Below are positions 12,489 to 20,213 of a stretch of DNA of 64,000 nucleotides, piece by piece. The stretch's first letter is position 1, and the number at the start of each line of letters is the position of its first letter. The notes under the pieces are model-generated. The model worked only from the letters and a program-made list of their open reading frames with translations, ran no database searches and was not told the origin of the DNA. The DNA lies in NCBI GenBank assembly GCA_951812625.1, contig CATOSP010000002.1, positions 248,001 to 312,000 of the forward strand, written 5' to 3'. The stretch comes from an uncultured Dehalococcoidia bacterium. Its GTDB lineage: Bacteria; Chloroflexota; Dehalococcoidia; Lucifugimonadales; UBA3495. The position numbers and the translations under genes were made by a program.

Positions 12489-13886
12489 TCAGTCTCCGTA
12501 GACCCGAGTGTCCGGCTGGAAAACAGCCCACGAAAACCAGAGTTGGCTGCCGCTATGGGGAATAGCCGTAAGCTGTTTGCCTTTGAGGAATCCTGACGTG
12601 GCTCTGCCCAAGAGGTTCCAGTTGCTACTGGTCTGGTCGTCGGTTATCTGCGAGCCGTCCCCGGAAAATGTAAGGCTCTGCCCGTCCAGTTTGGGATCGA
12701 AGACTCCGGTCGCCCCAACGTCCCGGCTGTTCGGAATGTAGCTGGCGTCGATGGCTGACGTAGTGCCTTCCTTGAAGAACACCACTAGGTCTTGCCCGTT
12801 TAGGGTATAGGAGATCACCTTCTCCTCTTGCAGTGCTTCAAATGGTACCGCGAGCGATTCGTCATCGATGGTTACACCCACTACACGGTCCATCAGTCCT
12901 AGGCGACGGTCGGCGGGACCGTCAAACAGGAACGGGTCCCGCAGGTCGTAACCGGCGTAGGGATTGCTCCCATAGGGCCGGGAGTAGCCGGTATCACGGG
13001 ACAGCACCTTGCCTTCAGGGAAGGACTCTTTGAATTCACCCCACGAAACGATGCCAAGGTAGACCTGTTCCAGCTTTTGGCCGGTCAGGTCCCCCACGAT
13101 TGCCTGACCGCCCATCTCCTGCCACCATGAGTGGGTCTGGCGATCGTACATGATGAGGTTGCTGTGGCGGAGATTGCCGGATGTCCCGAAGTCGAGGACT
13201 TGACCGTCCACCGTGCGCCTGTACACGAAGGCGCTATTGCAGAGGGGTCAATAGGTGATGACGACTGGTTCCCCTCCTACCGTGTCGTTAACAATCTCAT
13301 GCCACATCATGATCTGCATCGGGTAGGCGCGGGCGTGTCCATTGAGATTGATCACTTGTACCGGCTCGCGGTCATCCAGCCATTCGTCTGCCTCGGCCAC
13401 CGTCCCGAACTTGGGGGCATCTATGGCAGGGATACCATCCTTGCCCGGCCCGCCGCTAAAAATGTCGCCATAGTCGATGGATCGCAGTGTGAAGTTGGTC
13501 TTCCAGCCAGTTGTCAAGACTCCGGCCTTCCGTAGCTCTTGTCTGGCTTGGTCCTCACCGATGGGGACGATACCGTCCCCTCTGCCGGATGGCGCCGGGG
13601 TTCGAGCTTCGGTTGCGACCGTGGCCGGGGCAGGAGACCCTTCCCCTGTAGGCCGGTACGTAGCTTTCGGTACAGGAGTGGGAGAGGGCACATTGGTCTT
13701 GATATCCGCTGCGCTGGCAGCGGATATCGTGGCGTCCGACGTAGGTGTCCCGGTAGGACCTGACTGCGTTGGCCCGGCGTTTGGATCGGTCTCAACTACC
13801 GCAGTCTCCGAGGAAGTAGTCCCGCCGCAGGCCGAGATGAGGAGCAAGGCGCAAAAAAGTGTAACGACACGTCCAATGTGCGTCAT
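12489..13886 (-). CDS. DUF3179 lipoprotein with in-frame TGA (candidate selenoprotein)
   Basis: Read through one TGA (13250-13248, codon 213), this frame gives a 465-residue DUF3179 protein. It begins with a lipoprotein signal (MTHIGRVV, hydrophobic core, lipobox LISAC with Cys20), then a Thr/Pro-rich linker and the domain. Just before the TGA is WHEIVNDTVGGEPVVITY; just after, in the same frame, PLCNSAFVYRRTVDGQVLDF and YDRQTHSWWQE. In DUF3179 proteins this position is normally the first cysteine of a CPLC motif, so the codon would give U-P-L-C, a selenocysteine version of CxxC. A hairpin follows the codon (see 13215-13234). Alternatives are a nonsense mutation or a base error. The domain's function is unknown. 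Confidence 0.75.
13215..13234 (-). promoter_or_regulatory. Possible bacterial SECIS hairpin
   Basis: On the minus strand, 13 bases after the in-frame TGA, GCGCC and GGCGC form a perfect 5-bp stem, extendable by one U-A pair, around a short loop (UCGUGUAC). The loop lies about 20-27 bases after the TGA, within the distance used by bacterial SECIS elements. The loop contains GU, but not at the first two positions as in the E. coli consensus, and no bulged U is obvious. It is therefore a plausible, unproven selenocysteine insertion signal. Confidence 0.4.
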
Positions 13887-16565: not shown

Positions 16566-18230
16566 TCAGTACTGGCGTTGCTGCCTCGACCGGCCTCCCA
16601 TATTGCCATAGGAGACGTCGGGATCAGTAACAACGTCGATCAGGGCCGCCTTGCCCGAGGCGAAGGCGCGTTCCATAGCGGGCCGTAGTTGCTCCGGGTC
16701 GGTCACGCGTTCGGAGTGTCCGCCCATGCCTTCCATGATCTTTGCGTAGTCAGTTTCCTGGGACAGGTAAGTGCCCAAGGCGCGTCCACCGCGCCGAAGG
16801 ACTCCCTGGGTGGTCTGGTTCCACGCCCCGTTGTTGCCGACGATGGAGACGATTGGCAGGTTGAAGCGGACGTAGGTCTCGATGTCGAACCCGGTAAGGC
16901 CAAACGCCCCGTCGCCGTAAATGATGCAGACCTGCTTGCCGGGCCGGGCTAACTGGGCCGCGGCAGCGAAACCGCTACCAGCCCCCAGGCAGCCGAAGCT
17001 TCCGGGGTCAAGCCAGTGACCGGGACGGTTTATGCCCAGCACCCGGGCCGCGAAGGTCACGAAGTCGCCACCGTCACCGATGACCGTGGCGTCATAGTCC
17101 AGAATATCCCTCAGTTCCTTCATAACGCGCATGGGATGTATCGGGGTATCGGTGCTGTTCAGCATGGGCTCGTCTGCGGCCTTCAGAGCAGCATCCTCGG
17201 TCATTACCTCTTCCACCCACGCTTTTCCGGGGGAACGGTAGCCGGTGTCATGTAGATGGTCCATAAGCTGGCGCAGGATGGGCTTGGTGTCGCCGACCAG
17301 CCCGACCTCCACGTCCCGGTTCTTACCGATTTCCGCCGGGTCCATCATTATCTCGATGAGCTTGGGGTTCTGGGGGAACATGTTCTCCGTGCCATAGCCG
17401 AGCCGAAAGTCGATGGGAGTACCGATGAGCAGCACCGTGTCGGACTTGACTAGCCCGTAGCGGCGACCCAGGCTACCCAGATTGGGATGGTCGGAGGGGA
17501 TGCTGCCTCGCCCCATGGCGTTCAGAAACACAGGGGAATCAATCATCTCGACGAACTCCCGTAGTTCCTCTGCGGCGTCGCACCACCAGATATCCGATCC
17601 GGCTAGAATCATGGGCCGCTCGGTATTTCGGAGAACGTCCGCTGCCCTGGCTATGTACTCCGGGTCGCCGTATGCCTTGGCCTCCGTCCGATACCGCTGT
17701 GGATAGCGGACCTGCTCTTCCTCAGCCTTGCCGTTCACCACGTCGATGGGGATTTCCAGGTAGGCCGGTCCGGGTATTCCGGTGGTCGACTCCCGGAAGG
17801 CTTCGGCCACGTACTCTGGGATGCGCTCAACGCGCTTGACCTGCTCGGCGAACTTTGTGATGGGTTTCATAAACGTGACGCTGTCGAAGTCCTGGAGGCC
17901 GCCCTTCAGGTGTTCCCCGATTGCTGCGTTGCCGCCGATGAGAATCATGGGGCTGGGGGCTTGGTAGGCGTTGGCCACGCCGGTAATGGCGTCGGTAACG
18001 CCGGGGCCGGCGGTCACAATGGCCACCCCGGGCTTTCCCGTGACCTTGGCCCACCCTTCAGCGGCGTGGGCCGCCGCCTGTTCGTGGCGGAAGTCTATGA
18101 CCTCAATACCTTCGTCGGCGCATCCCTCGTAAAGGTTGTAGATGTGGCCTCCGTTGAGGGTGAAGACGTACTGGACGCCCTCCTGTCTAAGGGCCTTTGC
18201 GAACAAACGGCCACCGTCAATCTCTGCCAT
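16566..18230 (-). CDS. Thiamine-diphosphate-dependent lyase (acetolactate synthase/HACL-like)
   Basis: A 554-residue enzyme with three TPP-family domains. The N-terminal pyrimidine-binding domain has the activating Glu in DFRHEQAAAHAAEG, then VTAGPGVTDAITGVANA. The central domain spans about 190-330. The C-terminal diphosphate-binding domain has GDGAFG followed by the distant N-x-x-x-N region (VGNNGAWN) typical of GDG(X)nNN motifs. GGAGG lies 6 bases before the ATG. Members of this group include acetolactate synthase, 2-hydroxyacyl-CoA lyase and oxalyl-CoA decarboxylase. Being beside formyl-handling and CoA-transferase-like genes favours a CoA-lyase role, but the sequence alone does not settle this. 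It is divergent from a second TPP lyase. Confidence 0.85.
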   Translation of the reverse strand: MAEIDGGRLFAKALRQEGVQYVFTLNGGHIYNLYEGCADEGIEVIDFRHEQAAAHAAEGWAKVTGKPGVAIVTAGPGVTDAITGVANAYQAPSPMILIGGNAAIGEHLKGGLQDFDSVTFMKPITKFAEQVKRVERIPEYVAEAFRESTTGIPGPAYLEIPIDVVNGKAEEEQVRYPQRYRTEAKAYGDPEYIARAADVLRNTERPMILAGSDIWWCDAAEELREFVEMIDSPVFLNAMGRGSIPSDHPNLGSLGRRYGLVKSDTVLLIGTPIDFRLGYGTENMFPQNPKLIEIMMDPAEIGKNRDVEVGLVGDTKPILRQLMDHLHDTGYRSPGKAWVEEVMTEDAALKAADEPMLNSTDTPIHPMRVMKELRDILDYDATVIGDGGDFVTFAARVLGINRPGHWLDPGSFGCLGAGSGFAAAAQLARPGKQVCIIYGDGAFGLTGFDIETYVRFNLPIVSIVGNNGAWNQTTQGVLRRGGRALGTYLSQETDYAKIMEGMGGHSERVTDPEQLRPAMERAFASGKAALIDVVTDPDVSYGNMGGRSRQQRQY

Positions 18231-18518
18231 TAAGCCTCCCAGAGCCTGATGAATGGACAAGTGGTTGGTGGTCACTCAGGGCCACCAGTCTCGTTTCCAT
18301 TATACATGATGAGCGAGGTAGCCAGTGGTTGGTACCTCAGCAGCAACCAAGTCCCGCCCCTGTTGACCTCGTTTGACACCAGTGTTGAAACTGCACACAG
18401 AAGGGCGGAGAACGTGCGGCAACGCCATATTGTATAATCGGGGACAGTCAACAGCAGCCGGGGTTCGCAGGCCTTCGGCAGGCCATAAGTTACCGAACAC
18501 CGGCATAGGAGGTCCGTT
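18231..18518. promoter_or_regulatory. Divergent promoter region between two TPP lyase operons
   Basis: No gene is present. TATAAT hexamers occur on the plus strand at 18433-18438 (towards the 18519 gene) and on the minus strand at 18299-18304 (towards the 18230 gene). Neither has a good -35 at the usual distance; a TTGACA at 18373-18378 is 54 bases before the plus-strand hexamer, too far. Shared control of both operons from this region is likely. Confidence 0.35.
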
Positions 18519-20213
18519 TTGGCAGAGGTAGAAGGGAGCGCCCTGATAGCCCAGTCAATCCAGAGAGAGGGTATCGAGACCCTCTTTGGGCTGGCGGGAG
18601 GCCCCATACAGGACATAATGGGGTTCGCCCCCCACTTCGGAGTCCGCCCCATCGGGGTGCGCCACGAGCAGGCTGCGACCTTCGCTGCCGCTGCGTATGG
18701 CTACGTTCGCAATCAGGTCGGCGTGGCGGTCCTGGCAGCAGGCCCGGCGGTTAGCAACGGCGTCACCGGCGCCCATGTCGCATATGACAACTGCTTCCCC
18801 CTGGTTATTCTGGGAGGGTCCGGTCCCCAGCGGGGGCGCTACACCGGCACTTTCCAGGAGACGGAAAACGTCCCCATGTTCAAGGGCATTACCAAGATGG
18901 CCGTTCAGGTGGAGAGCACGGCCCGCATTCCCGAATACATGGCTATGGCCTTCCGTAAGGCGCGGACGGGGAGACCCGGTCCCGTGTACCTCGACCTGCC
19001 CTCAGATGTCATTCAGAACGGAGTTGACGAGGAAAGCGTTCGCTGGCCCTCGAATTACTATACCGATGCCCCGCCTGGGGGAAATCCCGACCAGGTAAGG
19101 CGAGCCGCAGAACTGCTCCTGAACGCCGAGCGTCCCATGATGATTGTAGGCAAGGGAGTCCGCTGGTCGGAACCTACGGCCGAGTTGCGGGAGCTGATCG
19201 AGTCCCTGGGGATGCCATACATCGCATCGCCGATGGGACGCGGGTTCATCCCTGACGACCACCTTCTGAACCTGGGGGCTGCCCGTAGCGCAATTATGGG
19301 CAACGCCGACGTTGTGCTGGTCGCCGGCTCCCGGCTGAACTGGATGTTCGAGTTCGGACGCCGTTTTCCGCCCGATGCCAAGATCATTCACATCGACATT
19401 GAGGCCGAGGAAATCGGCTTCAACCGGGCCGTCGACGTGGGTATAGTGGGCGACGCCAGGGCCGTTTTGGGACAGATACTGGCTGAGTTAGAGGGCAAGA
19501 CTGCCGGGATGCGGGAAAGGGCCGAAGAAGGGCCCTGGCTGACTTCCCTGCGCAACCAGGTCGAGGGCAACGCTGGCAGGATTGCCGACCGTCTCAACTC
19601 CGACGCGAAGCCGATTCTGACCCACCGGCTGTTGCACGAGGTGAGCCAGGTATTCCCCAGGGAGACGATTTACTCGGTAGACGGCCAGACGACCCTGGCC
19701 ACGGGCAGGCAGGTGTTGCAGAGCTACACCCCGGCCAGCCGGTTGAACTCCGGCTCCAACGGCTGCATGGGCGTTGGCGTCCCCTTCGCCATTGGCGCAA
19801 AGCTGGCCCGCCCCGATGTTCCGGTGGTCAGCGTCAACGGCGATTGTGCCTTCGGGTTCAATGCTATGGAGATGGAGACCGCGGTGCGCTGCCAGTTGCC
19901 GATCGTCTTCATCATCAACAACAACTCGGGCATCGTCGGTGGCAGCCTGGAAGCCCACATGGGGCTTCCCGAAGGTTATGAGGAAAGGGTCGCCACCTAC
20001 ACCCCCGACATCCGATACGACCGTATCCTGGAGGCTTTCGGCGGGTATACCGAAAATGTCACCGAACCATCGGAAATCAACGCCGCTCTCCAGAGGGCTT
20101 TCCAGGCGACCCAAGAGGGCCGGGTGGCTTGCGTTAACGTAATCTCGGACCACATGGAAGTTATGCCCCGTAGCGGCAGCAGGGGAGGCTCCCTGATGGG
20201 CTACGACCGGTAG
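18519..20213 (+). CDS. Thiamine-diphosphate-dependent lyase (oxalyl-CoA decarboxylase/HACL-like)
   Basis: A 564-residue paralogue of the divergent 16566-18230 enzyme, translated from TTG with AGGAGG six bases upstream. It has VRHEQAATFAAAAYG (catalytic Glu), a LAAGPAVSNGVTGAHVAYDN block, and the C-terminal NGDCAFGFNAMEMETAVR with INNNSG (GDG...NN motif). The pattern is close to oxalyl-CoA decarboxylase/2-hydroxyacyl-CoA lyase, which cleave to formyl-CoA plus CO2 or an aldehyde. It is the first gene of a four-gene plus-strand operon. The substrate is not proven; an acetolactate-synthase-like enzyme of other specificity remains possible. Confidence 0.82.
   Translation: MAEVEGSALIAQSIQREGIETLFGLAGGPIQDIMGFAPHFGVRPIGVRHEQAATFAAAAYGYVRNQVGVAVLAAGPAVSNGVTGAHVAYDNCFPLVILGGSGPQRGRYTGTFQETENVPMFKGITKMAVQVESTARIPEYMAMAFRKARTGRPGPVYLDLPSDVIQNGVDEESVRWPSNYYTDAPPGGNPDQVRRAAELLLNAERPMMIVGKGVRWSEPTAELRELIESLGMPYIASPMGRGFIPDDHLLNLGAARSAIMGNADVVLVAGSRLNWMFEFGRRFPPDAKIIHIDIEAEEIGFNRAVDVGIVGDARAVLGQILAELEGKTAGMRERAEEGPWLTSLRNQVEGNAGRIADRLNSDAKPILTHRLLHEVSQVFPRETIYSVDGQTTLATGRQVLQSYTPASRLNSGSNGCMGVGVPFAIGAKLARPDVPVVSVNGDCAFGFNAMEMETAVRCQLPIVFIINNNSGIVGGSLEAHMGLPEGYEERVATYTPDIRYDRILEAFGGYTENVTEPSEINAALQRAFQATQEGRVACVNVISDHMEVMPRSGSRGGSLMGYDR

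Follow-up and report, generated by a model that had tools for sequence, protein, structure and literature searches.

DUF3179 (pfam11376) is catalogued among the prokaryotic selenoprotein families, with the motif U-x-x-C/T (PMC9312934, PMC13188914). According to both sources, selenoproteins of this family were first reported in a study of the symbionts of the worm Olavius algarvensis (Zhang and Gladyshev 2007, as cited there), and DUF3179 has so far stood on selenoprotein lists without a function. Here we examined a DUF3179 gene in a 64,000-nt stretch of Chloroflexota DNA (hereafter the window; all positions are numbered within it unless a contig is named). A preliminary description had called the gene a candidate new selenoprotein and had proposed checks that included a genome search for selA, selB, selD and tRNA-Sec, an alignment of homologues, and SECIS folding. 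Several independent computations strongly supported this reading, and we estimate at roughly 96% the probability that the gene encodes a (predicted) exported DUF3179 lipoprotein in which an internal UGA is decoded as selenocysteine (Sec), giving U-P-L-C.

The internal UGA and the cysteine motif

The gene occupies 12489..13886 on the minus strand and forms one open frame of 465 residues plus a TGA stop once its internal TGA (13248..13250, minus strand; residue 213) is read through. The preliminary description of a frame interrupted by this lone TGA, with both flanks in register and both belonging to the domain, proved accurate. The read-through protein matched PF11376 over the full length of the profile (1-292 of 292; residues 149-460) at 349.7 bits (E 1.8e-104), far above the curated cut-off of 27 bits, and a search of NCBIfam with the protein matched no model. 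Translation of the N-terminus (MTHIGRVVTLFCALLLISAC) was read by eye as a predicted signal peptide (13827..13886, minus strand) with a lipobox-like I-S-A-C, within L-I-S-A-C at residues 16-20, in which Cys20 is the predicted lipidated residue. DUF3179 homologues have similar N-termini (e.g., LFVLVLIASCG and VLMAFLVAACG). The true stop of the gene is the TGA at 12491-12489, which is followed by no stem comparable to that described below.

Homologues of DUF3179 were found in 76 of the 99 related genomes searched, many of them with one TGA. When 45 homologous genes were compared at the Sec codon, 30 (window gene included) were found to carry TGA and 15 to carry TGC or TGT; no other codon occurred. 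In the protein alignment, residue 213 was Cys or Sec in 36/36 homologues, and the second Cys of the motif (13239..13241, minus strand; residue 216) was likewise invariant, such that neither cysteine column of C-P-L-C varied otherwise in this alignment. The in-frame UGA is thus placed where homologues have Cys, as is looked for in a bacterial selenoprotein, and the earlier claim that the TGA coincides with the first Cys of a CPLC-type motif, the second Cys being kept, was borne out. The accompanying argument, that a nonsense mutation would rarely strike a CxxC cysteine, could be given a value: a single nonsense change among 465 codons would hit either cysteine with a chance of ~0.4%. In one relative (G059; L065:3672-6382), two DUF3179 genes lie in tandem, with TGC in one and TGA in the other at the same codon.

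Two DUF3179 paralogues in the window genome (L023, G000:C1:342557-343465, and L024, G000:C1:26181-27110) also carry TGA at the Sec codon. They belong to two further subfamilies, with the motifs U-P-L-C and U-T-L-C, and both genes have a SECIS stem of their own. Elsewhere in the 64,000-nt window, no other convincing selenoprotein candidate was detected. The best of the others, an in-frame TGA between two long frames at 55168-55166 (minus strand), was rejected: it is simply the normal stop that parts a 2-oxoacid dehydrogenase E2 acyltransferase gene from one for a lipoyl ligase. The window also includes, at 16566-20213, two thiamine-pyrophosphate enzyme genes arranged head to head and divergently transcribed (16566-18275, minus strand; 18519-20213, plus strand), each of which matched all three Pfam TPP enzyme domains.

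Selenocysteine machinery and SECIS element

The window genome (4.03 Mb in 5 contigs, 95% complete) was found to encode all four components named in the preliminary description: selA (452 bits), selB (347 bits, above cut-off), a tRNA-Sec with anticodon TCA (UCA), and selD (L018, G000:C2:793402-794325). The selD gene also encodes a selenoprotein: its TGA lies in the context CAG-U-AAK, and it has a SECIS-like stem, GGACCUG-GUA-CAGGUCC. Among the 99 relatives, selA scored above cut-off in 84. Four fairly complete genomes in which selA was not found (G080, G091, G077 and G065; 89-97% complete) had no TGA form of DUF3179. In eight genomes the TGA form was present and selA was not found (G014, G017, G024, G029, G043, G075, G084 and G090), which can be explained by missing sequence, as these assemblies are 56-87% complete.

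Folding of the sequence after the UGA revealed a bacterial SECIS upper stem-loop, GCGCCU-UCGUGUAC-AGGCGC (13215..13234, minus strand), that starts 13 nt after the UGA and is defined by the predicted fold and by conservation of its pairs. The whole predicted element (13201..13250, minus strand) is the minimum free energy structure, with a z-score of only -1.7. The UGA lies in its lower helix, which not every relative retains. The upper stem was retained throughout the 18 Sec genes of subfamily 1, in which 108/108 pair cells were standard and all six pairs were kept, including a C-G to G-C double change. The 12 other Sec genes are quite different in sequence and have a stem at nearly the same place, with 70/72 standard cells in the first six pairs. 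The 15 Cys homologues had standard pairs in 32/90 and 45/90 cells, which is the level of chance. Covariation of the stem was exceeded in 0/500 shuffles for one group of Sec genes and in 3/500 for the other, and was above that of every slid register in both groups. Stem scores were higher for Sec than for Cys genes (p = 1.9e-7, an approximate value since the rows are related). The bSECIS model calls for a G among the first two nucleotides of the apical loop, and this was found in most of the other Sec genes; in subfamily 1 the G is at position 3 and conforms to the model only if U23 pairs with A29.

The window gene therefore has, shortly after the UGA, the SECIS stem-loop that is characteristic of a bacterial selenoprotein, and the stem covaries across Sec genes. 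In the proposed mechanism, SelB and tRNA-Sec(UCA) would decode the internal UGA as selenocysteine, the stem-loop 13 nt downstream would direct the insertion, and Sec would take the place of the first Cys in the C-x-x-C centre to generate U-P-L-C.

Domain duplication, fold and redox neighbours

Comparison of the two parts of the DUF3179 domain by hhalign (99.8%, E 4.2e-28) revealed that DUF3179 is a tandem duplication of one domain, with the Sec motif in the first copy only. Copy 1 (12972..13442, minus strand) includes U-P-L-C, and copy 2 (12492..12974, minus strand) has no CxxC. AlphaFold models were confident for the whole protein (pLDDT 95.6) and for copy 1 (95.3). Foldseek against the PDB returned no match at E < 1e-3; the eight best matches of copy 1 were all Rieske proteins, as was every match with probability > 0.2 among the best 50 listed. 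The four best, Rieske [2Fe-2S] ferredoxins, had probability 1.00, E values of 8e-3 to 3e-2 and TM scores of 0.52-0.61 by target. By eye, the spacing from hairpin to Cys would place Rieske box 2 (C-P-L-H) at U-P-L-C. Rieske proteins, however, have box 1 C-x-H and box 2 C-x-x-H, whereas in DUF3179 box 1 is absent and C-x-x-C/U stands at box 2. Sequence homology between the two families was rejected, with an hhalign probability of ~1.5% whether 7 or 36 Rieske sequences were used; the Rieske profile PF00355 did not match the window protein, and sequence searches found no relatives of solved structure. As profile comparison lends no support, the Rieske likeness of the predicted fold is a structural lead only.

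The genes next to DUF3179 in relatives point to thiol chemistry. TlpA/ResA-like thioredoxin genes adjoin DUF3179 in three lineages (L026, L028 and L031), and genes of CcdA-like membrane proteins adjoin it in three other lineages (L027, L043, L045, L052 and L054). The CcdA-like genes, with N-P-C and S-C-T motifs, are directly upstream of DUF3179 on the same strand; they were not matched by Pfam DsbD_TM, and the only support for their assignment comes from the cysteine motifs together with a weak match in hhalign (81%, E 1.2e-5). Beside the DUF3179 copy of the window itself, no redox gene was seen among the genes looked at. CcdA and TlpA are parts of thiol-electron pathways for proteins located outside the cytoplasm. 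The window protein is likely an exported selenol/thiol redox lipoprotein. This view is based on four points: Cys and Sec replace each other in the family, the motif has CxxC spacing, the start of the protein is lipobox-like, and homologous genes have the neighbours described. The U/C-x-x-C centre may have a selenol/thiol redox role outside the cytoplasm and may be recharged by a TlpA/CcdA-type thiol pathway. The preliminary description had likewise proposed a thiol/selenol-redox lipoprotein; the lipobox-like start and the TlpA/CcdA-like neighbours in relatives make this a sound proposal, with the function itself a prediction.

The main alternative accepts Sec and takes U-P-L-C as a metal site of a Rieske-like lineage rather than as a catalytic thiol/selenol centre. 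The Foldseek matches of copy 1 and an almost invariant His located 17 residues before Sec are consistent with such a site, which we nevertheless regard as unlikely, as the box-1 C-x-H of Rieske proteins is absent, profile comparison gives no support, and both the Cys/Sec exchange and the TlpA/CcdA-like neighbours favour thiol chemistry. A more speculative form of the redox reading, which we hold only tentatively, is that DUF3179 may be a lipoprotein with a duplicated Rieske fold, copy 1 of which has exchanged its iron-sulphur box for a selenol/thiol U/C-x-x-C centre that TlpA/CcdA serve. If true, the Rieske fold would here be put to redox use with no iron-sulphur cluster.

Selection, stop readings and comparison with known DUF3179 selenoproteins

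Downstream of the TGA, dN was 0.25-0.39 and dS was saturated; thus, the protein encoded beyond the TGA is under purifying selection. In the 12 codons after the UGA, dS was 0.44-0.67, by contrast to saturated or high values elsewhere, revealing that synonymous change is suppressed over the SECIS codons only. Absence of Sec machinery together with decay of the downstream frame, which the preliminary description had named as evidence against selenocysteine, was not what was found: the machinery is complete and the downstream frame is selected. In the tree, the window gene fell in a group (98/97) whose 16 rows are all Sec, and four changes between Sec and Cys were needed over the whole DUF3179 tree. 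Two of the Cys genes, L028 (G090) and L035 (G073), lie in or close to the Sec clade; selA was not found in either genome, but these are only 83% and 81% complete.

These data bear on the three readings in which the UGA does not specify Sec. One might suspect that the TGA arose in sequencing or assembly, or that a nonsense mutation has made the gene a pseudogene, since errors do occur in metagenome-type assemblies of this group, as G041 and G037 show with their frame breaks, runs of N and scattered TAG codons. This explanation is ruled out by the conservation of TGA and stem across genera: TGA is at the Sec codon in 30/45 genes from many genomes, the covarying stem is confined to Sec genes, and purifying selection downstream is accompanied by reduced synonymous change in the SECIS codons. 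The three homologues concerned (L055, L056 and L057) have N runs, frame breaks or in-frame TAG in assemblies that look error-rich; further recoding at these TAGs was considered and rejected, as the genes inspected have their TAGs at a distance from the Sec codon, which is TGC or TGT, and are located on error-rich contigs. Decoding of UGA as a standard amino acid, by a code change or a near-cognate tRNA, is hardly credible, even though read-through with Cys would also keep the motif: UGA is a working stop in this genome, as it terminates the window gene itself and parts the two unrelated genes at 55168-55166; the genome encodes the Sec machinery, and only the internal UGA is followed by a SECIS stem. 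Termination at the UGA with restart downstream, for which a 245-residue ORF starting with GTG at 13226 is available, can be dismissed, as the break into two half-proteins would fall within copy 1 of one continuous domain, the Cys homologues are single unbroken chains, and the SECIS stem would be left without purpose. With the covarying stem, the suppressed dS after the UGA and the low nonsynonymous change downstream, comparison could hardly make the selenocysteine reading more certain.

DUF3179 thus presents a repeated Sec/Cys exchange in which the SECIS stem is present or absent to match. The Cys homologues (C-P-L-C) of the same order and phylum have the domain in common with the window gene, close ones being 51-58% identical to the window domain; they differ in having TGC or TGT and no SECIS stem, compared to TGA with a stem in the window gene. 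Standard gene calling cuts the Sec genes short. A clean set of orthologues with Sec or Cys from a single bacterial order, together with a predicted fold and thiol-redox neighbours, makes the chemistry of DUF3179 testable.

Compared to the catalogued DUF3179 selenoproteins, the window protein has the same domain and the same U-x-x-C motif. Of the claim for a candidate new selenoprotein, the selenoprotein part is strongly supported by the machinery, the covarying SECIS and the TGA/TGC/TGT exchange; novelty applies to the gene only, as the family was already catalogued. By text search, Chloroflexota are named in neither PMC9312934 nor PMC13188914, and the window member is from this phylum, to which its organism is assigned on the basis of the named nearest hits. 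As a further difference from the catalogued description, the window genome has three DUF3179 Sec paralogues. What the present analysis adds is the occurrence of several Sec paralogues per genome in a Chloroflexota group, the tandem duplication with the Sec motif in copy 1 only, the predicted Rieske-like fold of that copy, and the TlpA/ResA- or CcdA-like neighbours in several lineages.
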